From an uncultured Shinella sp. (GTDB lineage: Bacteria > Pseudomonadota > Alphaproteobacteria > Rhizobiales > Rhizobiaceae), in the NCBI RefSeq assembly GCF_946479415.1, contig NZ_CAMLFY010000010.1, forward strand, positions 10,786-74,785: a DNA stretch of 64,000 bases. The letters run 5' to 3'. Made by a program: the position numbers and the translations under genes. Shown here one piece after another: positions 14,340 to 47,955 of the stretch. The notes beneath the pieces were generated by a model, which saw only the letters and a list, made by a program, of their open reading frames with translations, ran no database searches and was not told where the DNA came from. Within the stretch, counting starts at the first letter, position 1, and each line of letters begins with the position of its first letter.

Positions 14340-14351
14340 CGTTCTACCCTG

Positions 14352-14864
14352 TCAATCCGCCGAACGGAACTCGAGATGCGTCCCGGGTTCGGCACGGGCA
14401 AGAAACGCCAGCAGATCGCCCTTGGCAAGAGCCGCGCAGCCTTCCGTGGGGGAATAATCCGGGCGGGCTATGTGCAGGAAAATGGCACTGCCGGCGCCGG
14501 GAACCGGCGGATCGTCATTGTGGCCGAGCACGACGACGATGTCGTAGAGATCGTCCTGCCGCCACATCTCTTCATGGCTTGCCGCGAAAGGGCGGGTGAC
14601 GGGGCGGTTATAGTCTGCGTGGGCAGGATCATCGCACCAGCCGTCCATCTCCGCGATTGCCTGCGTCGGGAAGGGCGACACCGGTTTTTCGATGCGGTCC
14701 GGGCGATAATATACCCTGCGGATCGGCCATCGACCGATGGGACTGACGCCATCGCCTTCCATCTTCTCCAGCTGTATGCCGCTGCGCCCCACGGCCGAGC
14801 GCCAGATCCGGTCGCCGTAGCATGCCTGCCAGCGCTCGCCGTCCGAGGTCACGATCAGATCCAT
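14352..14864 (-). CDS. YkuD-family L,D-transpeptidase-like protein
   Basis: This 170-residue protein starts at ATG 14864 with AGGAA five bases upstream. The YkuD active site is visible as VLGHNDDPP, His131 in FLHIARP and Cys143 in SPTEGCAAL, matching the HxnS/TxGC pattern of L,D-transpeptidases. The family uses the Cys to form or exchange 3-3 peptide crosslinks or to attach proteins to peptidoglycan. No signal peptide is seen, unlike classical periplasmic members; similar short versions are common in Rhizobiales. It is followed after 12 nt by the D-aminopeptidase gene, so the pair probably handles D-amino-acid-containing peptides. Confidence 0.82.
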   Translation of the reverse strand: MDLIVTSDGERWQACYGDRIWRSAVGRSGIQLEKMEGDGVSPIGRWPIRRVYYRPDRIEKPVSPFPTQAIAEMDGWCDDPAHADYNRPVTRPFAASHEEMWRQDDLYDIVVVLGHNDDPPVPGAGSAIFLHIARPDYSPTEGCAALAKGDLLAFLARAEPGTHLEFRSAD

Positions 14865-14956
14865 AGGCGTTCCTTTGCGGTCCATGGGAAACGGCGGGCC
14901 GCAAGGATATGCGGATCGGTGAGACAGCTTAGCCGCTGTCTCACCCATTTCAATGG

Positions 14957-16330
14957 TCAGCCGAGAATGCTCTTCACTGCCTCGGCCGCGGCCTTCACGA
15001 CGATGTCTGCCTCTTCGCGAGTAAGGCAAAGCGGTGGCGCGAAGCCGAGGATATCGCCTTGCGGCATCGCACGACCGATGATGCCGCGTTCGAGAAGGGC
15101 GGCGGAGACCTGCGGGCCGATCTTTTTGCCCGGATCGAAGAAGACGCGGTCGTCCTTGTCCTCGACGAATTCGATTGCTGCCATCAGGCCGTCACCACGC
15201 ACGTCGCCGACATGCTTGTGATCGCCGACGGCCTTGGCGAGCTCGCTGCGGAAATAGGCGCCCGTCGAACCGGCATTTTCGACGAGGCCGAGTTCGTCGA
15301 TCAGTTCGAGATTGGCGACGCCGGCGGCGGCGCAGATCGGATGCGAGGAGTAGGTCCAGCCATGGCCGATGGCGCCGAGTTCATCCGAACCCTTGACGAG
15401 CACATCCCATACCTTGTCCGAGACGATGGTGCCGGAGAGGGGCGCGTAGGCCGAAGTCAGACCCTTAGCGATGGTGATAAGCGCCGGTTTCATGCCGTAA
15501 TGATCCGAGCCGAACATCGTGCCGAGGCGCCCGAAGCCGGTGACGACCTCGTCGGCGACGAGCAGGATGTCGTATTTGTCGAGCACGGCCTGGATTTTCT
15601 GCCAATAGCCCTTCGGCGGCGGCACGATGCCGCCGGTGCCCAGGATCGGCTCGCCGATGAAGGCGGCAACAGTCTCCGGCCCTTCGGCAAGGATCATCTC
15701 TTCCAGCTTGTCGGCGCAATATTGCGAGAATTGTTCCTCGTTCATCGTGTGGTCCGGCCGACGGAAGAAGTAGGGAGCCTCCGTATGCAGGATCGGCGCG
15801 CGCGGCAGGTCGAAGGCATTGTGGAAGAGATGGAGGCCGGTCAGGGAGCCGGTCATGACGCCCGAGCCGTGATAGCCGCGCCAGCGGGAGATGATCTTCT
15901 TCTTCTCCGGGCGGCCGAGAATGTTGTTGTAGTACCAGATCAGCTTGATGTTGGTCTCGTTGGCATCCGAGCCGGAAAGGCCGAAATAGACGCGGCTCAT
16001 GCCTTCGGGCGCGCGGTCGATGATCATCTTGGAGAGCGTGATCGACGCTTCCGTGCCGTGGCCGACATAGGCGTGGTAGTAGGCAAGGTTCTTCGCCTGC
16101 TCGGCAATCGCATCGGCGATCTTCTGGCGGCCATAGCCGACATTGACGCAGTAGAGGCCGGCAAAGGCATCGAGGCTCGTCTTGCCGGTTGTATCCGTGA
16201 TGTAGACGCCTTCGCCGCCGCCGATGACGCGTGTCGGCGTCTCGCCGCGGGCGTGCATGCCCATATGGGTCGAGGGGTGGAAGAAATGGTCGCGGTCCCA
16301 GGCGGTGAGTTCGTTGCGTCCGTCGGACAT
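14957..16330 (-). CDS. doeD: Class III aminotransferase, probable diaminobutyrate transaminase of ectoine catabolism
   Basis: This 457-residue PLP-dependent omega-aminotransferase shows the cofactor aspartate in LLVADEVVTGFGR (Asp260) and the Schiff-base lysine Lys289 in ITIAKGLTSAYAPLSG. It sits 32 nt after a semialdehyde dehydrogenase and downstream of an AsnC regulator, divergent from the ectoine genes. In known ectoine degraders a transaminase (DoeD or Atf) converts L-2,4-diaminobutyrate, released by DoeB, to aspartate semialdehyde, which the dehydrogenase oxidises. The specific substrate is inferred from context; the same fold also covers putrescine, GABA and beta-alanine transaminases. 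Confidence 0.78.
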   Translation of the reverse strand: MSDGRNELTAWDRDHFFHPSTHMGMHARGETPTRVIGGGEGVYITDTTGKTSLDAFAGLYCVNVGYGRQKIADAIAEQAKNLAYYHAYVGHGTEASITLSKMIIDRAPEGMSRVYFGLSGSDANETNIKLIWYYNNILGRPEKKKIISRWRGYHGSGVMTGSLTGLHLFHNAFDLPRAPILHTEAPYFFRRPDHTMNEEQFSQYCADKLEEMILAEGPETVAAFIGEPILGTGGIVPPPKGYWQKIQAVLDKYDILLVADEVVTGFGRLGTMFGSDHYGMKPALITIAKGLTSAYAPLSGTIVSDKVWDVLVKGSDELGAIGHGWTYSSHPICAAAGVANLELIDELGLVENAGSTGAYFRSELAKAVGDHKHVGDVRGDGLMAAIEFVEDKDDRVFFDPGKKIGPQVSAALLERGIIGRAMPQGDILGFAPPLCLTREEADIVVKAAAEAVKSILG

Positions 16331-16362
16331 GGTCTTTCCTTTCGATGTTGCTGGCGCCGGGA

Positions 16363-17859
16363 TCAGGCGGCCGTGTCGATGCAGAGATATTTGAGTTCGG
16401 TGAAGGCCTCCATGCCGTGGCGCGAGCCCTCGCGGCCGAGACCGGATTGTTTCCAGCCCCCGAAGGGGATCGGCCCGCCGGTGATCTTCACCCGGTTGAT
16501 CGCCACCATGCCGTATTCCAGCGCGCGGGCAAGGCGCATCTGGCGGGCGCCGTTTTCGGTGACGACATAGGCGACGAGGCCGTATTCGGTGTCGTTGGCG
16601 CGGGAGACCACTTCGGCCTCGCTGTCGAAAGCCGTGACGGCGGCGACGGGGCCGAAGGTTTCCTCGCGCATGATGAGCGCGTCATTCGGGACATCGGTCA
16701 GAAGCGTCGGTTCGAAGAAGAGCGGGCCGGCCTTGTGGCGCTTGCCGCCGGTCAGCAGCTTTGCGCCGCGGTTCAGCGCATCGGCCACCTGTTCCTCCAC
16801 CTTGGCGATGGCACGTTCATGCATCAGCGGGCCGATTTCGACGTCGGCCTCCAGCCCGGCGCCGACCTTCAGGGTCGCGATGCGCGTCTTGAAAGCCGTG
16901 TTGAATGCCGCGAGCGCGGAACGTTCGACATAGATGCGGTTGGCGGCGAGGCAATCCTGCCCCGATGTCGCAAATTTCGCGTTGACCGCGATATCGGCCG
17001 CCTTGTCGATATCGGCATCGGCGAAGACGATCAGCGGGGCATGGCCGCCGAGCTCCATCACTAGGCGCTTCATGGTGGGCGCGCACTGGCCGGCGATCAG
17101 CTTGCCGATCTCGGTCGAGCCGGTGAAGCTCATGGCGCGGATACCGGGATCGGCGCTCATTTGTCCGACGATGTTTGCGGCATTGCCCGTGACGACATTG
17201 AAAACGCCGGCGGGAAAGCCGGCCCGCTCGCCGAGTTCTGCAAGCGCAAGCGCGGAGAGCGGCGTTTCGCTGGAGGGATGGGCAACGACGGTGCAGCCGG
17301 CGGCAAGCGCTGCGGCCGCCTTGCGGGTGATCATCGCGGAGGGGAAATTCCACGGCGTCACGATGCCGACGACGCCGAGCGCCTCGCGCCGTACGATCAT
17401 CTCGGCGCCTGGCAGGTGGCTCGTCACGTTTTCCGCGTTCAGGCGTTTTCCTTCCTCGGCATACCATTCGACGAAGGAGGCGGCGTAGTCGATCTCGCCG
17501 CGGGATTCCGCGATCGGCTTGCCCTGTTCCAGTGTCATCAGCAAGGCGAGATCTTCGCGGTGCTCCAGCATCAGGTCGTGCCATCTGCGCAGGATTTTCG
17601 CGCGCTGCTGCGGCAGCATATCCCGCCATGCGGCGAAGGCGTCCGCTGCGGCGGTGATGGCGTCCGTGGTCTGATCGCCATCGAGCGCGGCAACCCAGGC
17701 CAGGGGCGCAGAGGAAGCGGGGTCGGTCACCTTGAAACTCGCGCCATCGCGGCCGGCGACCCAGCGGCCGCCGACATAGGAAAGCTCGCGCAGCAGATGC
17801 GGATCGGCAAGGCGGGCAAGCGCGTCGTGAAAGGTCGGGCGGGCAAATAGGGCGGTCAC
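16363..17859 (-). CDS. doeC: NAD(P)-dependent semialdehyde dehydrogenase (DoeC/Ssd-like)
   Basis: This 498-residue protein starts at GTG 17859, which has a strong AGAGGAGG six bases upstream; a longer frame to 18006 is rejected. Typical succinate-semialdehyde dehydrogenase features are GVVGIVTPWNFPSAMITRK, SFTGSTEIGKL, the general base in MELGGHAPLIVF and the catalytic cysteine in SGQDCLAANR. It carries the full ALDH length. Co-transcription with an AsnC regulator and a class III transaminase next to ehu-eut-doe genes points to oxidation of aspartate semialdehyde from ectoine. A second, similar enzyme lies at 28428-29903, so which one is used in the pathway is uncertain. Confidence 0.8.
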   Translation of the reverse strand: MTALFARPTFHDALARLADPHLLRELSYVGGRWVAGRDGASFKVTDPASSAPLAWVAALDGDQTTDAITAAADAFAAWRDMLPQQRAKILRRWHDLMLEHREDLALLMTLEQGKPIAESRGEIDYAASFVEWYAEEGKRLNAENVTSHLPGAEMIVRREALGVVGIVTPWNFPSAMITRKAAAALAAGCTVVAHPSSETPLSALALAELGERAGFPAGVFNVVTGNAANIVGQMSADPGIRAMSFTGSTEIGKLIAGQCAPTMKRLVMELGGHAPLIVFADADIDKAADIAVNAKFATSGQDCLAANRIYVERSALAAFNTAFKTRIATLKVGAGLEADVEIGPLMHERAIAKVEEQVADALNRGAKLLTGGKRHKAGPLFFEPTLLTDVPNDALIMREETFGPVAAVTAFDSEAEVVSRANDTEYGLVAYVVTENGARQMRLARALEYGMVAINRVKITGGPIPFGGWKQSGLGREGSRHGMEAFTELKYLCIDTAA

Positions 17860-35201: not shown

Positions 35202-36308
35202 TTATCGGGGTTGCTGTTGTGTGACGCAGTGAATGCCGCCGCCGTTTTCATAGATGCGGTCAACATCGAGTTGCACGATGCGACGACCGGGATGCAGCCG
35301 GCCGAGAACGTCCTTCGCCAGCGCATCCGCCTTCCGGTCGCCGAATTGCGGCGTGTAGAGGGCTCCGTTGCCGACATAATAGTTTGCGTAGCTGCTGAGG
35401 AAATCCTCGCTCGTCGAGCGAACCTCGGTTGCCGAGGGAATGGAAACGACCTCGAAGGCGCGGCCACGCGCATCGCGCGTCTTGGCGAGGATCGCGAGCG
35501 CCTCCTCATGGGCGCGTCCCCACTCCGAAGTGTCGCCGGGATAGCTGCTGGCGATGATAAGGCCGGGCTGCACGAAGCGGAGCGAACCGTCGATGTGCCC
35601 ATCCGTGATATCAAGCCCGCGCACGCCGGGCACCCAGACGACGGTTTCAATGCCGAGCGCGGCCTTGAGGCGTTTTTCGATCTCGGCACGCGTCATGCCG
35701 GGGTTGCGATTGTCGTTCACCCAGCAGCTTTCCGTAAGCAGGAGCGTGCCGTCGCCGTCATATTCCATGCCGCCGCCTTCGCCGCAAAGGTCTGCATCGT
35801 GACGATCGACCTTCAGCAGCGTCGCAATCTGCGCGGCGAGCTTGCCGTCGCTGGCGTGGGGCTGCTTGTTGCCCCAGCCGTTGAAACCGAAATCGACGGC
35901 GGCGACACCGCCGTCTTTCTTGCGGACGAAGACCGGGCCACTGTCGCGTGCCCACATGTCGTCCGTCGGGATATCGACGATCTCGACCTTCGGTCCGCAG
36001 AGGCGGGCTGCCAATGCATGCTGATCCGCGGGCGCCGCCATGGAAACGGGCTCGTTTTCGGCGATCGCCGCGGCAAGCCGGCCAAGTGTTTCCTGCACGC
36101 TTTCGAAATAGGCGCCGGGGCCGCCATAGAATCGCGGCGTCGAGGGCCAGGCCATCCATGTTCTCTCGTGCGGGTCGGCTTCGGCGGGAACGTTCACCAT
36201 CCGGATATCCTCCTCTGCGGCACGGCTATGGGCCGCGGGTAAAAGCGCCAGGCCCGCTGTCGCCAGAACGAAGCTGCGGCGTGACACCATTGTGGCGCGC
36301 CGGTTCAC
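35202..36308 (-). CDS. Tat-exported agmatine deiminase-family protein
   Basis: This 368-residue protein of the agmatine deiminase/peptidylarginine deiminase family shows MWARDSGPVFVRK, LTESCWVNDNRNPG, ITDGHIDGSLRFV and the catalytic cysteine Cys361 in GGGIHCVTQQQ. Its N-terminus contains a twin-arginine signal (SRRSFVLATAGLALLPAA), so the enzyme should fold in the cytoplasm and work in the periplasm. The start is read as GTG 36308: it overlaps the upstream stop as GTGA and has AGGAG eight bases before it; ATG 36290 is the alternative. It would hydrolyse agmatine or a related guanidino compound to a carbamoyl amine outside the cell membrane. Confidence 0.82.
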   Translation of the reverse strand: MNRRATMVSRRSFVLATAGLALLPAAHSRAAEEDIRMVNVPAEADPHERTWMAWPSTPRFYGGPGAYFESVQETLGRLAAAIAENEPVSMAAPADQHALAARLCGPKVEIVDIPTDDMWARDSGPVFVRKKDGGVAAVDFGFNGWGNKQPHASDGKLAAQIATLLKVDRHDADLCGEGGGMEYDGDGTLLLTESCWVNDNRNPGMTRAEIEKRLKAALGIETVVWVPGVRGLDITDGHIDGSLRFVQPGLIIASSYPGDTSEWGRAHEEALAILAKTRDARGRAFEVVSIPSATEVRSTSEDFLSSYANYYVGNGALYTPQFGDRKADALAKDVLGRLHPGRRIVQLDVDRIYENGGGIHCVTQQQPR

Positions 36309-37327
36309 AGCGGCTGCTCCTGCGTGATGCAATGGATGGCGCCGCCACCGGGAGCGACGGCGCCCATATCGACCGTGACGATCCGCCGATCCGGGAAGGC
36401 GCGGGCGACCGCTGCCCTGGCCTCGTCACCGGACGGGCGTCCGAAGGTCGGCATTACGACACCGCCATTGGTCAGCGCGAAATTGATGTAGGAGCGGGCA
36501 AAAACCTCGCTGGTCGCTTCCACGTCATAGGCTTCCGGGATGGGGATGACCTCGAAACTGCGCCCACGCGCATCCGTCTGACTTTTAAGCGCCGCCAGGT
36601 TGTCGGCGAGGATGCGGCCGTGCAGATCGGTCGGATCGGGATTGTATTCAAACATCACGACGCCGGGTTTCACGAAGCAGCACATGCCGTCGACATGGCC
36701 GTCGGTTTCCAGATCGAGCGGATCGCCGGGCAGCCAAACGACCTTTTCGAGGCCCAGCATTCTCACGAGTTCCTGCTCGACCCAGGCCTTGGAGAGGCCG
36801 GGATTGCGGTTGGGATGAAGCAGGCTCGTCTCCGTGACGATCAAGGTGCCATCACCGTCGCACGCCAGCGAGCCGCCCTCGCAGTGAAGAAAGGACCGGA
36901 TGATTGCGGCCTCTTCATAGGCCAGAACGCGGCCGGCCAGAGCGTCGTCGGTATCGAACGGCGCGTGTTTGCGCCCCCAGGCATTGAAGCGCCAGGAGAC
37001 GCCGGCAAGGCCGCCGTCGGCGCGCTTGAGGAAAGTCGGGCCGGAATCGCGGATCCAGCAGTCGTCGATCGGCAGCGCGACGATCTCGATGGCATCGGCA
37101 AGCTGTGCCCGGGCGCTCTGCGTGTGATCGGGATGGGCCACCATGCTGACGGGCTCGAATTGCGCGATCGCAGCCGCGACATTGGCATAAGCGCGCTGCA
37201 TGTCGGGCAGGCATGCACCGTAGAGATCCTGGCGGTGCGGCCAGGCCATCCATGTCTTGGCATGGGGTTCGAATTCGCCTGGGCGGCGCAGCTTCAGGTG
37301 CTGTCGCGACTGTATCGTCGTGTCCAT
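36305..37327 (-). CDS. aguA: Agmatine deiminase
   Basis: This 340-residue cytoplasmic protein has the complete agmatine deiminase motif set: WMAWPHR near the start, CWIRDSGPTF, HCEGGSLACDGDGT, ETDGHVDGMC and the nucleophile Cys333 in GGGAIHCITQEQPL. It lacks a signal peptide, unlike its downstream paralogue, to which it is coupled by a 4-base overlap. AguA converts agmatine to N-carbamoylputrescine and ammonia. No carbamoylputrescine amidase of the nitrilase type is seen here; the nearby amidase could conceivably substitute, but that is speculation. The divergent LysR gene probably regulates the operon. Confidence 0.85.
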   Translation of the reverse strand: MDTTIQSRQHLKLRRPGEFEPHAKTWMAWPHRQDLYGACLPDMQRAYANVAAAIAQFEPVSMVAHPDHTQSARAQLADAIEIVALPIDDCWIRDSGPTFLKRADGGLAGVSWRFNAWGRKHAPFDTDDALAGRVLAYEEAAIIRSFLHCEGGSLACDGDGTLIVTETSLLHPNRNPGLSKAWVEQELVRMLGLEKVVWLPGDPLDLETDGHVDGMCCFVKPGVVMFEYNPDPTDLHGRILADNLAALKSQTDARGRSFEVIPIPEAYDVEATSEVFARSYINFALTNGGVVMPTFGRPSGDEARAAVARAFPDRRIVTVDMGAVAPGGGAIHCITQEQPL

Positions 37328-38475: not shown

Positions 38476-41400
38476 TCAAAACTGCTTGGCGGCCTTGATG
38501 CGTCCGCCCGCGGACGTTTCGCCGCTTTCGGCGATATTGAGAAGCAGGCTCAGGTCCAGCATCCACATGTTTGCGGTCTGCAACGCCACGCCGGCGGTCA
38601 GCGAGCCGAAGGCGCCGGAGCCGTCGAGGCCCGAATAGCCGCCCGTCACGCCGAGTTTCGGCGTTACCTGCGTGCCGCTCTCCAGCGTGAACGACCGTGC
38701 GATTTCAGCCCCCAGGCTCACGCGGAACTGCTCCTGGTCGAATCCGTCGATTGCGACCGTGTCTCCCGCATCGTTCTTCACGGCGTAATCATCGACGCTT
38801 TCGGAGAAATAGACGATGCGCAGTTTCGGCGTGATTGTCGTGGCTTCGTCGAGGTTCCATTGCCCTTCGAGCGAAGTGTCGGCCATCCAGCGGGTCGTGT
38901 CGAAACTGCCGTCCCAGAATGCCGTGTCGATATCGTTGGACGATCCGCCATAGCGCAGGCTGGCATTCCAGTAGATGTTCCGCGCGATCTCGAAGGAAGC
39001 ATAGGGGCCGACCAGCCAGCCGTTACCTGTAAGCTCGGCATCCTCGTCCGTCGGGTCCGTCATCCTGTCGTAGTGGAACGACAGGCCGACGAGCGCCTTG
39101 TCGGTCAGGAGGTAATCCGCGCCGAGGCTGATCATGGCGAAACTGCCCCAGCGGCCGTCATTGCCGTCTCGATTGTGGGCGAGAAAGGCACCGTCGATCC
39201 AGATGTTGAACGGCGAGGATGCGGCCGCGCTGACGCCATCGGCATGGTCGCGGGCGGCCTCCATCTGCCGCAGGCTGGTCGAGAGACTGCCGGTCATGCC
39301 GTCTTCGGATGGCGTCATGCGGGCGGTCACAGGATCGGTCGCTTCCTCCATCTGCCGACGCTCCAGAAGTCCCGGCACCTTGATCGTCGAGGAGATCAGG
39401 TCCTGTCGCGTCTGGACGAAATCACGCACGAGTGCATCGATATCGTCCGCGACCTTGGCAGGGTCGTGGGCCAGCCGGTAGGTAACGACGCCGGTATTGG
39501 ACGTGCCGAGCGCACTGATCAGCCGGTAACCGACCTGTACCTCACCCGAATAGGCGGGGTCGGGCGTGTATTTCAGATACCAGCCGACCGGCGCTTCGGC
39601 GGCTGCCGCAGATGCGACGTCACCGCGGATGATCGTGGCCGTGCCCGCATTTGCCGGTGTGACGAAGGCGAGCTCCGCGGCGGTGAACGGACCGCCCGTC
39701 GCACCGCGGTTCAGATAGACATTTGCGGGCGTTCCGCCGGCGGGGACCTCCACGACGATATTGATGACGGTGGTTGTCCGGCGCTTTACGCGGAGTGTGT
39801 AATTGGCTTTTCCGGTTGCGCCGTTGCCGTCTCTCACCTGGATGGCGAGTGTGTAATTGCCGGCGCTCGCATCCGTGGCCAGGGGGCCGGTCAATTCTCC
39901 GGTCGAGACATTCAGCACCACGCCCTTCGGCAATTTACCGGAAGAAATACTATAGACCAGCGCGCCGGAGCCGCCCTTTGCGGTGATCGACTGACTGTAG
40001 CTCTCGCCCGCCATGGCCTCGTCCAGGGCACCGCCTGCCGGCGTGAAGGTGAACGTGACCTTGGGCGGCTTGATTTTAAGGGAGTAGGTGGCGGTCGCCG
40101 TCGTGCCGACGGTGTCGGTTGCCGTGACGGTGACCGTGAAGTCACCACTTGCCGTCGGCGTGCCGGTGATTGCTGCTGTCGATGCATCGAGGCTGAGCCC
40201 TGCCGGAAGCGCTCCGCGCGTCACGGCATAGCCGATCGCGCCGACCCCGCCGCTGGCCGAAATCGACGTGTTCGAATAGGACGTGCCCGCCGTCCCGGAC
40301 TTCAGAGCCGTGCCCGTTGCCGGCGTCAGCACGACGGCCGGCGCCGTGACCGCAATCGTGTAGCGCGCCGAAGCCGAGCCGCTGGTCGCGGCTGTCGCCG
40401 TTATGGTGAAAGTTGTCGTGCCGAATGCGCCTGCCGTCGGCGTGCCCGATATCGCCCCCGTCGTTGCGTTGAGCTTCAGCCCGGCCGGCAGCGCGCCGGT
40501 TGTCACGGCATAGGTGATCTTGCCCACCCCGCCCTGTGCCGAGATTGCGGTATCAAAGTAGGAGGTGCCGACCACACCCGCAGTCAGGGTCGAACCCGTT
40601 GCCGGTGTCAGAACGACCGCCGGTCCCTTGACGACGATCGCATAGACGGCCGAGGCGGAGCCGCTTGTCGCCGCCGTGGCTTTCACCGTGAAGCGGGTCG
40701 TGCCGAGCGCCGCCGCGGTTGGCTTGCCGGTGATAGCGCCCGTCCCGGCGTTGATCTTCAGGCCTGCAGGCAACGCGCCGCTCGTGACGGCATAGGAAAT
40801 CTTGCCGACCCCGCCGCTGGCGGAAATCGACGTGTCGGAATAGGCGGCACTGACCATGCCTTCATTGAGCACCGAGCCGGTTACGGGTGTCAGGACCACG
40901 GCAGGACCGCACACGGTGATTTTGTAGCGTGCCGTCGCCGAGCCGGCCGTTGCTGCCGTTGCCTTGATCGTGAAGACCGCTGTGCCAAGCGCCGCCGCCG
41001 TCGGCGTGCCGGAGATCGCGCCCGTCGATGCGTTGAGCGTGAGCCCGGCCGGCAGCGACCCGCCCGTCACCGCATAGCTGATCGCGCCGGTGCCGCCCGT
41101 TGCTGAGATCGACGTATCCGAATAGGTGACGCCGACGGTGCCGGCGGTCAGAGCGGACCCAGATGCCGGCGTCAGCACCACCGCCGTGGTGCCGATGGAG
41201 ATTTTATAGATGGCCGAAGCGGTGCCGCTGGTTGCCGCCGTCGCCGTCACGGTAAAGGTGGCAAGGCCAAAGGCGGCGTTTGTCGGCGTGCCGGAGATGG
41301 CACCCGTCGATGCGCCAAGGCTGAGCCCGGCCGGCAGCGCACCGGCTGTCACGGCGTAGCTGATCGTCCCGACCCCGCCGCTCGCCGAGATCGATGTGTC

Positions 41401-44400
41401 GGAGTAGGCCGTGCCGATGGTGCCGGCCGTCAGTGTCGTGCCGGATACGGGCGACAGAACCATTGCCGGTGCGCCCACCGAAATCGTGTAGCTCGCCGAG
41501 GCCGAGCCGCTGGTTGCCGCCGTCGCCGTCACGGTGAAGGTTGCCGTTCCGAAGGCGGCACTGGTCGGCGTGCCGGTGATGGCGCCCGTTGCCGTATTGA
41601 GGCTCAGTCCCGCCGGAAGCGCACCACTCGTTACGGCAAAGCTGATCGTCCCGACGCCGCCAGCTGCAGAGATCGAGGCGTTCGAATAGACGACGCCCAC
41701 GGTGCCGGCCGTCAAGGCCGTTCCCGTGACAGGGAACAGCACGACGGAGGTTCCACCGACGGTGATCGAATAGCTCGCGGAAGCCGCGCCGCTGGTTGCA
41801 GCCGTCGCAGTCACGGTGAAGGTCGATGTGCCCAGCGCGCCGGCCGTCGGCGTGCCCGTTATTGCACCGCTCGAAGCATTGAGATTGAGCCCCGATGGAA
41901 GCGCACCGCCTGTCACGGCAAAGCTGATCGCGCCGACGCCGCCACCTGCCGAGATCGAGGTGTTCGAATAGGCCACGCCCACCGTTCCACCCGTCAAGGC
42001 CGTTCCCGTGACGGGTGAGAGCACGACGGAGGTGCCGCCGACGGTGATCGAATAGGCCGCGGATGCCGAGCCGGATGTCGCCGCCGTCGCCGTTATCGTG
42101 AAGCTTGCCGTGCCGAAAGCGGCGACGGCCGGCGTGCCGGTAATCGCGCCGGTCGCCGTGTCGAGGCTGAGCCCTGTTGGAAGGGTGCCGGCGGTCAGCG
42201 CGTAGCTGAACGTTCCAACCCCACCACTGGCGGAGATCGACGTGTCCGAATAGGCGACGCCGACGGTGCCGGCGGAAAGTGCGCTACCCGTTACCGGCGT
42301 CATCACCACCGGCGGGGCCGCCACTGCTATGGAATAGCTTGCCGATATGGAACCCGCTGTTGCAGCCGTGGCCGTTACGGTAAAGTTTGCCGTGCCCAAT
42401 CCGGCTGTCGTCGGCGTCCCTGTGATCGCGCCGGTAGAGGTATCGAGTGAGAGCCCAGCCGGCAGTGCGCCACTTGTCACGGCATAGCTGATCGCGCCGA
42501 CGCCACCACTGGCTGAAATCGACGTGTCCGAATAGGAAACTCCGACCGTGCCGGCCGAAAGCGTCGCGCCGGTCGCCGGCGTCAGCACCACGGGCGGCGC
42601 TGCAATCGTGATCGTATAAGAGGCTTGCTCGAAGTTTCCGAAAACCAGCGACTCTATGTCTACGACGATTGTCGTCGTGCCGAGTGCGCTCGCCGTTGGT
42701 GTTCCGGTGATTGCACCCGTCGTGGCGTCCATTGCCAAACCGTCAGGAAGCCCGCTTCCGTAGTATTTGACCGCACCGATAGGAGCACTCGCCGAGACCG
42801 ATGTGTCCGAATAGGCGGATCCGACCAGGCCGCTCGTCAAGGCGGTTCCGGTCGCTGGCGCCAGGTTCAGCGGCGGCCCCACGATCGTGATCGAATACGT
42901 GTTTACAGCCGAGCCGCTTGTCGCGGCCGTTGCCGTGATGCCGACGTTGAACGTGCCCATGGCCGTGGCGGCGCCGCTGATTTCGCCGGTCGCTGTGTTG
43001 AGCGTGAGGCCCGGCGGCAGCGCGCCGGCGGTCACCGCAAATGTAATGGTTCCCACGCCGCCTGTCGCGGAGATGGTCGTCGAGTAGGCAAGCCCCCCAG
43101 TGCCTCCTGTGATCGCGCCGCTTGCGGGCGACATGACCACGGGCGGTGCGGTGATCGTGATCGAATAGGCGGCCGTCGTCGATCCGCTGGTCGCTGCTGC
43201 CGCCGACACCGTGAAATTCGACGTGCCGAACGCAGCCGCTGTCGGTGTGCCCGTGATCGCGCCCGTCGAGGAGTTGAGGGAGAGTCCGGCGGGCAGCGCG
43301 CCGCTCGCGACTGCGTAGGTGAGCGCCCCTACGCCGCCGGTTGCGGAGATCGAGGTGTCGGAATAGCTCGTTCCCACCACGCCGGCGGTGAGGGCCGCAC
43401 CGGTCGTGGGCGTGAGCACCACGGGCGGCGCCGTGACCGCGATCGAATAGCTGGCGGCAGCTGATCCCGTCGTCGATGCCGTCGCCGTCACCGTGAAGTT
43501 TGCCGTTCCGAGCGCCCCGGCTGTCGGCGTGCCGGTTATCGCGCCGCTCGACGTGTTGAGGCTGAGGCCGGCCGGCAACGAGCCGGAGGTCACGGCGTAG
43601 GTGATCGTGCCGACACCGCCCGTCGCCGAGATCGACGTGTCGGAATAGCTCGTTCCCACCACGCCTGCGGTGAGGGCCGTACCGGTCGTGGGTGTCAGCA
43701 CCACGGGCGGTGCCGTGACCGTGATCGAGTAATTCGCGCTGGCCGAGCCGGTTGTTGCAGCCGTCGCCGTCACCGTGAAGTTCGCCGTTCCAAGCGCCCC
43801 GGTCGTCGGCGTGCCCGTGATCGCGCCACTCGATGTGTTAAGGCTGAGGCCCGCCGGTAACGAGCCGGAGGTGACGGCATAGGTGATCGTGCCGACACCG
43901 CCCGTCGCCGAAATGGAACTGTTGGAATAGGACGAGCCAACCACGCCTGCGGTAAGCGCGGTACCGGTCGCGGGCGTCAGCACGACGGGCGGGGCCGTCA
44001 CCGTGATCGAGTAATTCGCGCTCACCGAGCCGCTGGTCGCGGCGGTCGCGGTCACCGTGAAATTCGCCGTTCCGATCGCGCCCGCCGTGGGCGTGCCGGT
44101 TATCGCGCCGGTCGATGTGTTGATGCTGAGCCCGGCCGGCAATGCGCCAGCCGTCACGGCATAGGTGATCGTGCCGGAACCTCCCGTCGCCGAAATCGAG
44201 GTGTTGGAATAGGATGTGCTCACCGTGCCGGCGGAAAGCGCGGTCCCGCTTGCCGGTGTCAGTGAAACCGGGGGAAAGGCGTTGATGGTGACGGTCACGC
44301 TCTGCGCGATGAAGTGCACGCCGCCGGTCGAGATGGTGGTGCTGTCCTGAACCTTCAGAATGAAGGTCGAACTGCCGACTACCGTCGGCGTGCCGGACAG

Positions 44401-45204
44401 GAGGCCGGTGCTCGAGAGGCTCAATCCCGCCGGCAGGCTGCCGCTGTCACGGGTGTAGGTGTAGCCCGCGGTGCCGCCGCTCGCGGAAAACTGCACACTA
44501 TAGGCCGTGCCGATGCCGCCATCCGGCGGGCTGTCCGGCGTCACGTCAATAACGGGCGCGGCGATGACGACGCTGTAGGCTTTGTCGAGCGTATTGGCCG
44601 TCGGTGTCGTGGAATCCGTCACGCGGACGCTAAAGTTGTAGGGGCCTGAGCCTGTCGGCGTGCCGGAGATGACGCCGGAGGAGGAGAGGGTGAGGCCGGG
44701 CGGCAGGTTGCTGCCTGACACGAGCGCGTAGGTATAGGGGCCGGTTCCGCCGCTCGTGCTGATTGCCTGATTGTAGGAGGTGCCGATGGCAGGCGTGGCA
44801 ACGGTCGATGGCGTGACCGTCAGCGGGGAAGTCGATGCGTTGACCGTGATGTTGAACGTAATCGGTGCTGCAACATCATCCTTGACGATGAATGTGTCTG
44901 ATGTCGCTCCGTCGCCGTTGTTCGTGTAGATCAGCGCGTAGGTGTTCGAGGGTATTCCGAAGGTTAGGCTGCCATGGGATGGCGAGACGTTGGCTGGTCC
45001 GATGAAGCCGAAATCGGCGCAGGTAAAGGTTGCGGTGCCGCCGGAGGTTATGGTCGCCGTCTGTGGAGAGGTGCATGCGGCGTGTGCCGCTGTTGCGGGC
45101 CAAAGGACGATCAATGAGATCAGGGTCAGGAATGCCAGGAAAAATGCCGGCCCGTCGCGATGCCGGCGCGAAATGCCTGACTTATTAAGCCATTTCTTAT
45201 GCAT
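38476..45204 (-). CDS. Giant autotransporter with 18 putative-Ig repeats
   Basis: This 2242-residue surface protein has four parts. Residues 1-42 form an extended signal peptide ending PATAAHA. Residues 43-126 are a unique domain with two cysteines. Residues 127-1809 hold 18 tandem repeats of about 93 residues of the putative Ig (He_PIG) type, each with SDTSISATGGVG, a LPAGLSLN turn and GAITGTPT. After a unique linker the C-terminal about 245 residues form an autotransporter beta-barrel (from NIWIDGAFLAHNRDG) ending in the outer-membrane phenylalanine, KQF. Repeats 3-6 are the most alike; the first two and last one are divergent. The stalk would be displayed on the cell surface as an adhesin or spacer. 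Start ATG 45204 is preceded by AGGGGCGGG. It diverges from three tail-collar genes. Confidence 0.88.
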   Translation of the reverse strand: MHKKWLNKSGISRRHRDGPAFFLAFLTLISLIVLWPATAAHAACTSPQTATITSGGTATFTCADFGFIGPANVSPSHGSLTFGIPSNTYALIYTNNGDGATSDTFIVKDDVAAPITFNITVNASTSPLTVTPSTVATPAIGTSYNQAISTSGGTGPYTYALVSGSNLPPGLTLSSSGVISGTPTGSGPYNFSVRVTDSTTPTANTLDKAYSVVIAAPVIDVTPDSPPDGGIGTAYSVQFSASGGTAGYTYTRDSGSLPAGLSLSSTGLLSGTPTVVGSSTFILKVQDSTTISTGGVHFIAQSVTVTINAFPPVSLTPASGTALSAGTVSTSYSNTSISATGGSGTITYAVTAGALPAGLSINTSTGAITGTPTAGAIGTANFTVTATAATSGSVSANYSITVTAPPVVLTPATGTALTAGVVGSSYSNSSISATGGVGTITYAVTSGSLPAGLSLNTSSGAITGTPTTGALGTANFTVTATAATTGSASANYSITVTAPPVVLTPTTGTALTAGVVGTSYSDTSISATGGVGTITYAVTSGSLPAGLSLNTSSGAITGTPTAGALGTANFTVTATASTTGSAAASYSIAVTAPPVVLTPTTGAALTAGVVGTSYSDTSISATGGVGALTYAVASGALPAGLSLNSSTGAITGTPTAAAFGTSNFTVSAAAATSGSTTAAYSITITAPPVVMSPASGAITGGTGGLAYSTTISATGGVGTITFAVTAGALPPGLTLNTATGEISGAATAMGTFNVGITATAATSGSAVNTYSITIVGPPLNLAPATGTALTSGLVGSAYSDTSVSASAPIGAVKYYGSGLPDGLAMDATTGAITGTPTASALGTTTIVVDIESLVFGNFEQASYTITIAAPPVVLTPATGATLSAGTVGVSYSDTSISASGGVGAISYAVTSGALPAGLSLDTSTGAITGTPTTAGLGTANFTVTATAATAGSISASYSIAVAAPPVVMTPVTGSALSAGTVGVAYSDTSISASGGVGTFSYALTAGTLPTGLSLDTATGAITGTPAVAAFGTASFTITATAATSGSASAAYSITVGGTSVVLSPVTGTALTGGTVGVAYSNTSISAGGGVGAISFAVTGGALPSGLNLNASSGAITGTPTAGALGTSTFTVTATAATSGAASASYSITVGGTSVVLFPVTGTALTAGTVGVVYSNASISAAGGVGTISFAVTSGALPAGLSLNTATGAITGTPTSAAFGTATFTVTATAATSGSASASYTISVGAPAMVLSPVSGTTLTAGTIGTAYSDTSISASGGVGTISYAVTAGALPAGLSLGASTGAISGTPTNAAFGLATFTVTATAATSGTASAIYKISIGTTAVVLTPASGSALTAGTVGVTYSDTSISATGGTGAISYAVTGGSLPAGLTLNASTGAISGTPTAAALGTAVFTIKATAATAGSATARYKITVCGPAVVLTPVTGSVLNEGMVSAAYSDTSISASGGVGKISYAVTSGALPAGLKINAGTGAITGKPTAAALGTTRFTVKATAATSGSASAVYAIVVKGPAVVLTPATGSTLTAGVVGTSYFDTAISAQGGVGKITYAVTTGALPAGLKLNATTGAISGTPTAGAFGTTTFTITATAATSGSASARYTIAVTAPAVVLTPATGTALKSGTAGTSYSNTSISASGGVGAIGYAVTRGALPAGLSLDASTAAITGTPTASGDFTVTVTATDTVGTTATATYSLKIKPPKVTFTFTPAGGALDEAMAGESYSQSITAKGGSGALVYSISSGKLPKGVVLNVSTGELTGPLATDASAGNYTLAIQVRDGNGATGKANYTLRVKRRTTTVINIVVEVPAGGTPANVYLNRGATGGPFTAAELAFVTPANAGTATIIRGDVASAAAAEAPVGWYLKYTPDPAYSGEVQVGYRLISALGTSNTGVVTYRLAHDPAKVADDIDALVRDFVQTRQDLISSTIKVPGLLERRQMEEATDPVTARMTPSEDGMTGSLSTSLRQMEAARDHADGVSAAASSPFNIWIDGAFLAHNRDGNDGRWGSFAMISLGADYLLTDKALVGLSFHYDRMTDPTDEDAELTGNGWLVGPYASFEIARNIYWNASLRYGGSSNDIDTAFWDGSFDTTRWMADTSLEGQWNLDEATTITPKLRIVYFSESVDDYAVKNDAGDTVAIDGFDQEQFRVSLGAEIARSFTLESGTQVTPKLGVTGGYSGLDGSGAFGSLTAGVALQTANMWMLDLSLLLNIAESGETSAGGRIKAAKQF
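39778..44826 (-). repeat. 18 tandem repeats of about 280 bp inside the autotransporter gene
   Basis: The region encodes 18 in-frame copies of a 90-95-residue Ig-like unit. Neighbouring units in the 43-44.2 kb part remain highly similar at DNA level, while the outer ones have drifted. The repetitive GC-rich sequence also produces a long meaningless open frame on the opposite strand. Copy number could vary between strains by recombination, and assembly errors are possible here. Confidence 0.85.
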
Positions 45205-45445
45205 TGTCCCGCCCCTGTACGCGCGCAATGCCGCGAGGAGGGTCATCCATTATCGCGGTCAGTCCGTTCAGCGCTTTAACCAATGACTTGCACGAAGCGT
45301 CGGAAAATACAACTCTGAATCGCAGATAGCGATAAATGACCTTCAAAAAAGATTATCAAGGCACTCTTCCCAAGGTGCGCGTTATGGGCGAGAGTGTTTG
45401 CGAGAATCTATTCAAAGTCGCTAAATTGTTGGGTGGGGGCAACAC

Positions 45446-45976
45446 ATGACCGATGTGTATCTCGGGCAGATCATGATGAGTGGGTTCGCATTTGCGCCGC
45501 GTTATTTCGCGCTCTGCAACGGCCAACTCTTGTCGATCAGTCAGAATCAAGCCTTGTTCTCGTTGCTGGGAACATATTACGGCGGGAACGGCACCACCAA
45601 TTTTGCGCTGCCTAACCTGCAGGGCCGCGTACCGGTCTCTGCGGGTTCGTCTGTCGATCCTTCCTGGCAACCCCCGCCTTATGCGATCGGGGAGACCGGC
45701 GGCGTCGAAACCGTGACGCTGAACACGCAGCAGATGCCCAATCACATTCACCAGGGCAACGGCACCACCGCCGACGGCGCGATACGCAATCCGACGGGCA
45801 CGCTTTTTGCGAAGAACTCCGTTCCCATCTATGCGCAGGCGACGGGAGCTCAGGTGCCCCTGTCGTCACAGACCGTCGCGTCGGCGGGTGGCGGACAGGC
45901 GCATTCCAACATGCAGCCTTACAGCGTCATCAATTTCTGCATCGCGCTTTCGGGCGTTTACCCGTCCCGCAACTAA
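45446..45976 (+). CDS. Phage tail-collar domain protein 1
   Basis: This 176-residue protein has the tail-collar N-terminus VYLGQIMMSGFAFAPRYFAL with CNGQLLSISQNQALFSLLG, then TYYGGNGTTNFALPNLQGRV, and a C-terminal QPYSVINFCIALSGVYPS. These segments define the small stand-alone tail-collar proteins related to the microcystin-related protein MdpB and to phage short tail fibres. It is the first of three tandem paralogues, starting after a G-rich ribosome site and divergent from the giant autotransporter. No signal peptide is seen, so how it would reach the surface is unknown. No other phage structural gene is nearby. Confidence 0.85.
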   Translation: MTDVYLGQIMMSGFAFAPRYFALCNGQLLSISQNQALFSLLGTYYGGNGTTNFALPNLQGRVPVSAGSSVDPSWQPPPYAIGETGGVETVTLNTQQMPNHIHQGNGTTADGAIRNPTGTLFAKNSVPIYAQATGAQVPLSSQTVASAGGGQAHSNMQPYSVINFCIALSGVYPSRN

Positions 45977-45997
45977 CACCATCGCCGGAGGTCAAAG

Positions 45998-46528
45998 ATG
46001 AGCACTCCCTATCTCGGGGAAATACGCATGTTCGGTTTTCCCCGCGTGCCGACCGGCTGGCAAGCATGTGATGGTTCGCTGCTGGCTATATCGCAATATG
46101 ACGCGCTGTATAGTCTGCTCGGCACCACCTATGGCGGTGACGGACAATCCACATTCGGCGTACCCGATCTCCGCGGACGCGTTCCCATGCATTGGGGGAG
46201 CGGGCAAGGTCTGTCGTCTCATGTCGCCGGTGAACTTGCGGGCACCGAGGCCGTGACGCTGATCACCAATCAGATGCCGCAGCATACGCACACCTTCTTC
46301 GCGACCACGGCGGCGGCAGATTCGGCGACGGTCGGAACGACGACGGAGCTTGGAGCGCTCGGCAGCGATACACTGTATGCCACCGATGTCACGGGCCTGA
46401 CGCCTTTCAGCATGTCGGGGGCCTCGACGAAGGCCGCCGGCAATACGCAACCCCACGACAACCTGATGCCGACACTCACGGTGCAATTCTGCATTGCGCT
46501 TTTCGGCGTCTATCCGTCGCAAGGCTGA
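45998..46528 (+). CDS. Phage tail-collar domain protein 2
   Basis: This 176-residue paralogue of its neighbours starts after a GGAGGT site 21 nt beyond the first gene. It has YLGEIRMFGFPRVPTGWQAC, LLAISQYDALYSLLGTTYGG and DLRGRVPMHWGSGQG, and ends TVQFCIALFGVYPSQG. The middle (about 95-150) differs most from the other two copies, as expected if this part forms the exposed, ligand-binding tip. It is otherwise the same architecture as the other two, implying a heterotrimer or three interchangeable fibres. Confidence 0.85.
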   Translation: MSTPYLGEIRMFGFPRVPTGWQACDGSLLAISQYDALYSLLGTTYGGDGQSTFGVPDLRGRVPMHWGSGQGLSSHVAGELAGTEAVTLITNQMPQHTHTFFATTAAADSATVGTTTELGALGSDTLYATDVTGLTPFSMSGASTKAAGNTQPHDNLMPTLTVQFCIALFGVYPSQG

Positions 46529-46559
46529 TGCGAACTCATTTCACGATAAGGGGATAAAA

Positions 46560-47093
46560 ATGACAGAGCCTTTCATTGGGGAAATCCAGCTGTTCGGCTT
46601 CAACTTCGCACCCCGTGGCTGGGCGTTCTGCAATGGCGCAACGCTTGCGATCCAGCAAAACACGGCATTGTTTTCGCTGCTTGGTGTAACCTACGGCGGC
46701 AACGGTATGTCGACGTTCCAGCTGCCGAACTTCATGGGGCGGACCGCAAACAATCAGGGCACGGGACCCGGCCTGAGCCAGCGATTGGCCGGCGAAGTCT
46801 TCGGGGAAAACAGTCTCACGCTGAGTTTGCTGGAAATGCCGGCCCACTCCCATTCGTTCGGGATCTACAATCAGGGTGACGTCGCGAAAAAATCGGGGAC
46901 GCCGTCCGCCGGCAATTCGTTGACCGCGCCCACGCAAAGCATTCCTTTTTCCAATGCGGGTGCGCCGGATGCGCAGTTTGCTCCCAACATGATCGGCCCG
47001 GCAGGAAACGGTCAGCCGCATGAAAACCGACAACCGTATCTGGCGATAAACTACTGCATCGCCCTTGAAGGCGTTTTCCCGTCCTTCGGATGA
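46560..47093 (+). CDS. Phage tail-collar domain protein 3
   Basis: This 177-residue third copy starts at ATG 46560 after AAGGGG; an earlier in-frame start at 46494 would run into the previous gene. It contains FIGEIQLFGFNFAPRGWAFC, LAIQQNTALFSLLGVTYGGN, a GNSLT-type central segment and the C-terminal YLAINYCIALEGVFPSFG. The stop overlaps the start of the GNAT gene (ATGA), so the acetyltransferase is coupled to the fibre genes. Confidence 0.85.
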   Translation: MTEPFIGEIQLFGFNFAPRGWAFCNGATLAIQQNTALFSLLGVTYGGNGMSTFQLPNFMGRTANNQGTGPGLSQRLAGEVFGENSLTLSLLEMPAHSHSFGIYNQGDVAKKSGTPSAGNSLTAPTQSIPFSNAGAPDAQFAPNMIGPAGNGQPHENRQPYLAINYCIALEGVFPSFG

Positions 47094-47665
47094 GTCCTGT
47101 TCAAGGTTTGGCGATGTCCGATTTTCCGGTGCGGTTCCTGCCGCCCCGTATTGACGTGGCAGGTATCGCGTTGCGCCACGCCGTGCCGTCGGATGTTGCG
47201 TTCTTCCTGGAACTTTACCAGTCGTTCCGCATGGAGGAACTGGCAGCGGTGCCGTGGCCACCGGAGCAAAAAGACGTCTTTCTCCGGCAGCAGTTCAGTT
47301 TCCAGCACCGCCACTATCTCGGAAGCTTTCCCAACGCCGATTTTCTTGTCGTCGCATGCGATCGGGTGCCGATTGGGCGCCTTTATCTGGATTGTACGCC
47401 GGATCGGTGGCATGTCATCGATATCGGTTTTCTGCCGGAGCATCGCGGCCGCGGCTTGGGAACGGCTCTGCTATCCGCAATTCAGCATGAAGCGGTCGTG
47501 GCGGGCGCGGCTAGGGTCGTGTTGCATGTCGAACAGCACAACTTCCGCGCCAGGGCGCTCTATCGTCGGTTGTCCTTCCGGGAGGTTGACGACAATGGCA
47601 CCCATTTGCGGATGGAATGGCCGGGCCGCGCTGTCAAAGCCGCTGCGGAACCGCCGGCTGTTTAG
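47090..47665 (+). CDS. GNAT-family N-acetyltransferase
   Basis: This 191-residue protein has a GNAT fold with the acetyl-CoA-binding signature HRGRGLGTALLSAIQ (motif A) and HVEQHNFRARALYRRLSFRE near the end. It starts at ATG 47090 overlapping the stop of the third tail-collar gene; ATG 47114 is an alternative. The coupling suggests it modifies the tail-collar proteins or a partner, for example by acetylating an N-terminus or lysine, though no substrate can be read. Its last 4 bases overlap the convergent small gene. Confidence 0.82.
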   Translation: MSPVQGLAMSDFPVRFLPPRIDVAGIALRHAVPSDVAFFLELYQSFRMEELAAVPWPPEQKDVFLRQQFSFQHRHYLGSFPNADFLVVACDRVPIGRLYLDCTPDRWHVIDIGFLPEHRGRGLGTALLSAIQHEAVVAGAARVVLHVEQHNFRARALYRRLSFREVDDNGTHLRMEWPGRAVKAAAEPPAV

Positions 47666-47955
47666 TTGAACACCGCCTGATAGACGATGCCCTGCTTGTC
47701 GCGCGCGACCGGAACGAGGAAAATATCCAGGACGCCGAGCGAGATATTCGTCATGCGATAAATCTGCTGCGGGAGCACGACCGCCGAATTGCTTCTAAAC
47801 AGGAGGGAGAACGGCTCCCGTCTCATGCCCGGCAAAATCTGCGTTCCGCCCGGCCTCGTTTCGGCGAGGGTCAGCGGCACGGTGCTTTCGCCGAGAGAAA
47901 GATCGAATGCTTCACCGACACGTCCCGCAAAATGTTGAAGCGTCAGCAGGTCCAT
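47662..47955 (-). CDS. Small protein, DUF6916-like
   Basis: This 97-residue protein converges on the GNAT gene, sharing four bases of the stop codons (TAA within the overlapped TTTAG). It contains GEAFDLSLGESTVPLTLAET, then GMRREPFSLLFRS and a C-terminal IYRMTNISLGVLDIFLVPVA, a pattern I associate, from memory, with the DUF6916 family that is often found beside tail-collar genes. It looks like a short all-beta domain. ATG 47955 has GGGAG nine bases upstream; an ATG six bases earlier is possible. The function is unknown. Confidence 0.6.
   Translation of the reverse strand: MDLLTLQHFAGRVGEAFDLSLGESTVPLTLAETRPGGTQILPGMRREPFSLLFRSNSAVVLPQQIYRMTNISLGVLDIFLVPVARDKQGIVYQAVFN

Follow-up and report, generated by a model that had tools for sequence, protein, structure and literature searches.

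Introduction

Bacterial proteins with a phage tail collar domain include RhiB, from the rhiABC operon of Rhizobium leguminosarum (PMC13133039; PMC6969944), and the COG4675 proteins, which have been detected in soil metaproteomes (PMC5579227); the latter protein group is therefore expressed in nature. Here, we analyze a stretch of 64,000 nucleotides (nt) from an uncultured Shinella sp. (assembly GCF_946479415.1, contig NZ_CAMLFY010000010.1, positions 10,786 to 74,785), referred to as the window, in which three collar genes, a gene for a GNAT N-acetyltransferase, and one for a DUF6916 protein lie beside the gene for a giant autotransporter. The collar proteins have their domain in common with RhiB and COG4675 "microcystin-dependent protein," a name that is also frequent among the database relatives of the third collar. 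The rhi operon, which we can liken to the cassette by description only, holds one collar gene with rhiA, rhiC, rhiD, and quorum-sensing genes, and the extracts that describe it mention no triad, GNAT, DUF6916, or giant.

Two other described systems resemble parts of the locus. With the head of the T4 short tail fiber protein gp12 (PDB 1OCY) and related tail fibers, the collars share a profile match and an HxH motif, which in gp12 holds zinc at the trimer axis. They differ from gp12 in that they lack a fiber shaft and begin directly with the collar, come mostly as three paralogues or one, and, at the window locus, stand without further tail genes in those flanks that were tested. The giant has in common with type Va autotransporters, such as EstA, NalP, EspP, and AaaA, a signal peptide, a repetitive passenger, and a C-terminal 12-strand barrel, whereas its passenger is immunoglobulin (Ig)-like (He_PIG) and, in this clade, a collar cassette adjoins it. 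Giants of other anchoring types (SLH, OmpA-like barrel, DUF4347 type, cadherin or Big repeats) occupy the same place beside collar genes elsewhere, and the titles and abstract openings of the literature on such giants leave collar partners unmentioned. A literature search, mostly of titles and abstract openings and with few subscription journals covered, found no description of the cassette, and no paper on DUF6916 (PF21880) was found.

A recurring cassette of collar, GNAT, and DUF6916 genes

The unit that recurs among bacterial genomes is one or more collar genes with a GNAT and a DUF6916 gene, usually adjoining a giant repeat protein of varying kind. An original prediction, made from the sequence of the window, had listed the six genes as a 2242-residue autotransporter, three stand-alone collars, a coupled GNAT, and a DUF6916 protein, and their positions and families are as it gave them (Table 1). 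The cluster exists, is conserved, and extends more widely than was then supposed. All three collars score above the curated cutoff for PF07484 (24 bits), as do the GNAT and DUF6916 proteins for theirs (PF00583, Acetyltransf_1, 20.7 bits; PF21880, 27 bits). The GNAT gene overlaps both of its neighbors by 4 nt, collar 3 in an ATGA and DUF6916 convergently. The near database relatives of the window proteins are Rhizobiales, Shinella and Ensifer, proteins; because the same neighborhood recurs in other genera and classes, the six-gene arrangement is beyond chance. The claim of a conserved set thus stands as far as recurrence across genomes goes, and its definition changes: the unit is collar(s), GNAT, and DUF6916, not autotransporter plus triad.

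One genome per species was scanned with a collar profile, and the counts that follow concern the best 80 loci of more, from many phyla, chosen by likeness to a profile that contains the window's own collars. Triad counts omit the 13 of these 80 loci without a triad. GNAT lies within 4 kb at 62 of the 67 triad loci and DUF6916 within the same distance at 48 of 67; an open reading frame (ORF) of at least 900 amino acids (aa), here termed a giant, lies within 3.5 kb at 44 of the 51 triad loci with both flanks. The hosts include bacteria with quite different envelopes, e.g., Ensifer, Nocardioides, and Paenibacillus.

Three further samples were drawn evenly from the order (199 genomes), class (190), and phylum (299), all centered on Ensifer oleiphilus (G002), which is itself counted. 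DUF6916 occurs in 13 of the 199 genomes of the order, and in 11 of these 13 a collar lies no more than 5 kb away on that contig; the exceptions are G077, with its nearest collar about 45 kb off, and G144, without a collar. The class sample has DUF6916 in 8 of 190 genomes, at 10 places (one below the family cutoff), and all 10 have a collar within the fetched 3.2 to 3.3 kb. Among 14 control genomes, one, Deinobacterium chartae, contains DUF6916.

Collars taken at an E value of 1e-12 or less were present in 53 of the 299 phylum-sample genomes, with 123 matches in 60 clusters. Since at most 11 candidates were scored per genome, cluster sizes may be undercounted; those seen were 29 clusters of three, 26 of one, 5 of two, and none larger, compared to about 23, 19, 11, and 5 clusters for sizes one to four under a zero-truncated Poisson distribution of the same mean. 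GNAT accompanies 22 of the 29 triads, DUF6916 20, and a giant 18; for triads with both flanks, the giant count is 17 of 22. These counts and those of the 80 loci annotate ORFs slightly differently and need not add up. Giants are concentrated close to the phylum-sample triads, with 19 in the 104 nearest slots (two on each side) versus 2 in the 125 slots at positions 4 to 8 (Fisher P = 9e-6, relatedness ignored). At the 40 first-scan triad loci outside the closest clade, the corresponding numbers are 26 of 144 and 5 of 181.

Collar lineages, motif, and fusions

The three collars are not recent copies of one another. In a quick tree of 210 triad collars, gene position changes label 15 times, where shuffled labels give a mean of 100 and the minimum is 2, and in the close clade described below each collar position forms its own group of 28 rows. 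The tree by position therefore points to three old paralogues that were mostly kept in order. By alignment, HxH is present in all three collars of the window, and by pattern it is present in 205 of 207 triad collar rows; one of the two misses shows HMH in a frameshifted row. Collar 3 of L074, disrupted by a frameshift, was retained unaltered. The collar profile matches the T4 gp12 head over residues 6 to 99 at an E value of 2.8e-4 and the long tail fiber 8KEC at 2.6e-8.

Fusions link collars to one another and to other domains. Two ORFs, one of 902 aa (L101, 7905-10613) and one of 730 aa (L176, 9567-11759), contain three Collar domains followed by 7 or 8 stretches of RTX repeats. Both are without HxH, as if the covalent link had made the knot needless. 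Two collars are fused at L099, with HxH kept, and at L098 (7694-9373) two Collar domains and a GNAT domain share one frame. The cluster sizes of one and three, the ordered paralogue lineages, the HxH motif, and the three-collar fusions together suggest that the collar trio, or one collar taken three times, probably makes a trimer.

Some loci hold more collars than a triad. At L055 and at L063, two collar triads stand side by side. At L009 (Mesorhizobium, 12784-17381), three further Collar-matching ORFs, more like phage tail fibers, adjoin the triad, and two of them (622 and 630 aa) have one Collar domain in the last third.

The giants beside the collars

As predicted from structure, the giant of the window is a type Va autotransporter. 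Counted from its first start codon, the ORF has 2256 aa; translation likely begins at an ATG 14 codons downstream, giving 2242 aa, also the length of database entry P0241. The sequence and its hydropathy show a Sec-type signal peptide, with a hydrophobic core and then AHA near residue 40 of the 2242-aa form. He_PIG matches the passenger at an E value of 1.4e-227, and the Ig units are spaced mostly at 282 nt in the gene. PF03797 gives no match in the window protein at an E value of 0.01; a homologue, P0242, 84% identical there, is listed with PF03797, and close homologues carry it. AlphaFold2, run on the last 417 aa with a 14-row alignment, predicts a helix at 90 to 115 and then 12 long strands (mean predicted local distance difference test score, 84.7). 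The first 16 Foldseek rows against the PDB are all autotransporters (E values of 2e-11 to 8e-7), and the best matches of the barrel part are AaaA, EstA, NalP, EspP, Hbp, BrkA, and AIDA-I. Structure prediction and Foldseek matches thus confirm the type Va barrel, and the earlier description of an Ig-repeat autotransporter is upheld.

A strong link between the collars and very large repeat proteins, of which the autotransporter in the original prediction is one, is supported, and in the 28 closest loci (L007-L033 and L074), here the close clade, it holds wherever there is sequence on the giant side. By their titles, these genomes appear to belong to Rhizobiales and Xanthomonadales, apart from two of Burkholderiales. 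The gene order, to the extent that the contigs cover it, is giant, collar 1, 2, 3, GNAT, and DUF6916. A large ORF resembling the window passenger (at least 192 bits by phmmer) lies on the giant side at all 24 loci with sequence there, 23 times divergent and once codirectional; L012 and L023 have a giant fragment at the contig end, and L020 and L029 have no sequence on that side. L028, tallied as giant-less among the 80 loci owing to an ORF on the opposite strand that masked it, has its giant in this comparison. Pfam searches of 5 of the 24 giants found He_PIG in all 5 and PF03797 in 2, with a window-type barrel by homology in 2 others; in the giant of L022, He_PIG repeats are present and the autotransporter barrel was not found.

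Such regularity would fit the reading of the original prediction, a dedicated machine of autotransporter plus triad whose collars have become specialized as the tip of this one stalk. The distribution of the barrel speaks against it. Window-type barrels, sought in the 199 genomes of the order at E values below 1e-50, occur at 10 places in 6 genomes, and only one of the 10, in G002, adjoins a trio. Seven (L121-L127), with as much as 10 kb covered on either side and less near contig ends, have no collar, GNAT, or DUF6916 match, one is in a genome without a collar match (G187), and one is at a contig end that does not permit placement (G124). Triads elsewhere adjoin other giants, and the barrel not found in L022 points the same way. 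Each partner thus occurs without the other, part of what the original prediction had named as contrary to it. The trio is missing beside most window-type autotransporters of the order sample, which refutes an exclusive pairing. The autotransporter family is general, and the trio uses it in this clade. A dedicated machine is accordingly improbable, and as an exclusive pair it is largely refuted.

Two observations concern these same genomes. E. oleiphilus has four autotransporters of the same barrel type (listed as L091 and L121-L123), one of them adjoining the collar trio. In G124, another contig opens with a passenger-like piece adjoining a single collar (L102), so the barrel there may be linked.

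Outside the close clade, the giants are of many kinds. Those beside triads have cadherin repeats (L034, Nocardioides), SLH and CBM_X2 domains (L066, Paenibacillus), a beta-helix (L043), or ASH-like Ig domains (L095). Next to single collars are an autotransporter with TIG domains (L109), an OmpA-like barrel with Big and cadherin repeats (L204), a Big_13 protein (L206), and DUF4347 proteins with cadherin-type repeats (L199, L200); where a pair lies at a contig edge, the giant next to it has Big_1 (L057). Domains of the Ig, cadherin, SLH, barrel, or beta-helix type are present in most of the neighboring giants scanned, from which it appears that the giants are exported.

Single collars may represent more than one system, as some share the cassette partners and others have none; this holds for L202, L205, L207, and other single-collar loci. 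In the phylum sample, 11 of the 26 single-collar clusters and 4 of the 5 pairs were fetched with flanks.

GNAT and DUF6916

The proposed substrate of the GNAT is the collars themselves. Two observations suggest this: the collar-collar-GNAT fusion and the residue at position 2, which is Ser, Ala, or Thr in 187 of 201 triad collars, a count that omits 9 of 210 collar rows off the start pattern (most with non-ATG starts, one broken). As a crude control, with starts unverified, the same residues stand at position 2 in 163 of 537 other ORFs. It is also possible, though we find it doubtful, that the GNAT acetylates another target, be it the giant prior to its export, a metabolite, or a lysine, and that its coupling to collar 3 is only transcriptional. 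In the PDB it has weak matches of several kinds, antibiotic and diamine acetyltransferases among them, and the rimI model gives 48.4 bits, under its cutoff of 86.4, which leaves room for such a target. The start-stop overlap with collar 3, the fusion, and the conserved small residue of the collars, not shared by the DUF6916 proteins, count against it.

DUF6916 was considered as a phage tube or baseplate protein. Its top Foldseek rows include the phage Mu baseplate and the MuSo2 tail protein, both at E values above 0.1, and a second structure aligner ranks the N-domains of YcgR and MrkH first; we take neither likeness as homology. The phage candidate was rejected on these grounds.

Relationship to phages

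Because the Collar domain is a phage tail domain, and the collars match PHROG tail families and 258 phage records, the genes might be leftovers from the tail of a prophage, or domesticated ones, that share no function. The phage records are all under 60% identity (best of 20 listed, 37%, annotated as a minor tail protein), in contrast to the 120 best database proteins for collar 3 among the matches listed, where identity is 61% or more along almost the full length; collar 3 has at least 7914 database matches. Eight larger flanking genes, the part of the window scanned for phage genes, gave no phage family at an E value of 1e-10 or less; their families are amidase, solute-binding protein, two PAD_porph, LysR, and the E3, E2, and E1 dehydrogenase subunits. 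Order, number, and partners of the collars are moreover conserved across many genomes. We regard the remnant explanation as very improbable. A prophage or tailocin was rejected as well, as the eight flanking genes tested include no virion or integration genes and the phage relatives are distant. That this is not an obvious prophage, as first proposed, agrees with the metabolic or regulatory nature of the flanking genes tested.

Among the flanking genes, the two of the PAD_porph family (agmatine or peptidyl-arginine deiminase type) are adjacent, in tandem at 35202-37327, and adjoin a solute-binding protein gene. A consensus scan of the intergenic region between the autotransporter and collar 1 found no promoter-like site.

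Table 1. Features of the collar locus, in positions of the window
Feature	Position	Strand	Description
Type Va autotransporter, giant	38476..45246	-	Signal peptide, 18 He_PIG Ig-like stretches, linker helix, 12-strand beta-barrel (predicted)
Autotransporter C-terminal part, last 417 aa	38476..39729	-	Helix, then 12 long strands (AlphaFold2, Foldseek)
Divergent intergenic region, autotransporter/collar 1	45205..45445	.	
Collar protein 1, 176 aa	45446..45976	+	PF07484, 91.3 bits; HxH motif; signal peptide not visible
Collar protein 2, 176 aa	45998..46528	+	PF07484, 95 bits; HxH motif; signal peptide not visible
Collar protein 3, 177 aa	46560..47093	+	PF07484, 89.3 bits; HxH motif; signal peptide not visible
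GNAT N-acetyltransferase	47090..47665	+	PF00583, 57.3 bits; overlaps collar 3 stop (ATGA)
DUF6916 protein, 97-99 aa	47662..47961 (47955 from next ATG)	-	PF21880, 101.3 bits; small, mostly-beta fold

Model of collar function

The gene content, linkage, order, motif, and fusions of this widespread cassette are what the data show. From them we infer a working in which an N-acetylated collar trimer acts outside the cell with the giant; how the trimer forms and from which subunits, what is acetylated, how the collars are exported, and that they attach to the giant all belong to that inference. The collars would be made in the cytoplasm and would form a trimer held by a metal knot, as in the head of the T4 short tail fiber, from three copies of one collar or from one each of collars 1, 2, and 3. 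The coupled GNAT would acetylate them in the cytoplasm, most likely on the N-terminal Ser, Ala, or Thr after Met removal, and DUF6916 may be a dedicated helper or adaptor. The trimer would then act outside the cell as a ligand-binding head together with the giant, probably sitting on it, here on the Ig-repeat autotransporter. Taken whole, this is our best explanation, and a tentative one that falls somewhat short of an even judgment.

For the part of the explanation that places the collar trimer at the surface, at work with the giant, we lean slightly in favor. An outside role is suggested because both three-collar fusions run into RTX repeats and the adjoining giants carry surface-type domains. 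That the trimer is physically the tip of this autotransporter is a more doubtful matter, to be entertained rather than expected. Less likely still is a bolder version in which a phage receptor-binding head has become an interchangeable, N-acetylated, heterotrimeric "plug-in tip" of giant surface proteins, with the collar trio, its acetyltransferase, and a DUF6916 helper of its own all retained, its stalks swapped among many anchoring types, and its leaderless trimer leaving the cell by an undescribed route.

A good deal weighs against an outside trimer acting with the giant. Signal peptides are not visible in the collars, with 1 of 210 above the hydropathy threshold, and no export route for them was seen. 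At L101, the two large neighboring ORFs scanned gave FliS and no match, so that a type I transporter is not among these two and the case for type I export of this fusion comes from its RTX repeats. For want of HxH, the RTX fusions need not assemble like the separate collars. Because the domains of the giants differ widely, a common docking site is not evident; of further giants beside triads, one has a weak beta-helix match (L106) and two have no family match (L097, L190). The best 80 loci include 11 single collars and 2 pairs, some at contig ends, and many phylum-sample clusters, whose sizes carry the possible undercount given above, are single. Some single collars are phage-like, in longer frames, and the 11 fetched with flanks have partners less often than triads do (GNAT 5, DUF6916 5, giant 7). 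Related genomes are not independent, a fact that the slot test ignores. Finally, 5 of the 22 well-flanked phylum-sample triads are without a nearby giant; these five include the RTX fusion at L176 and the fusion to GNAT at L098.

Some of these points would suit a different explanation, in which the collar trimer, GNAT, and DUF6916 stay in the cytoplasm and never reach the surface, for instance to fold, cap, or regulate the giant while it is made, or to carry out an unrelated task. Besides the signal peptides not visible in the collars, the fusion at L098 would suit a cytoplasmic role, as it places collars where acetyl-CoA is, and DUF6916 may resemble in shape the N-domains of YcgR and MrkH, which are cytoplasmic. 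RhiA, encoded beside the collar protein RhiB, has been used as a cytoplasmic marker (PMC2275737; PMC13133039). Set against this, two genomes fuse three collars to RTX repeats, a kind found on type I secreted proteins; giant repeat proteins are much more common in the near slots than further out; and the phage relatives of the Collar domain are tail fiber proteins. We consider an inside role unlikely, if one to be reckoned with.

Database names for the collars ("phage tail," "tail fiber," or "microcystin-dependent" protein) are silent on a bacterial role. In the genomes studied here, collars keep a set order and specific partners within a cassette that mostly adjoins a giant repeat protein. If collars do act outside the cell as N-acetylated trimers, this would give a function to a large family, that of the at least 7914 matches to collar 3, and to DUF6916; it would point to a bacterial step dedicated to protein N-acetylation; and it would raise the question of how leaderless proteins get out.

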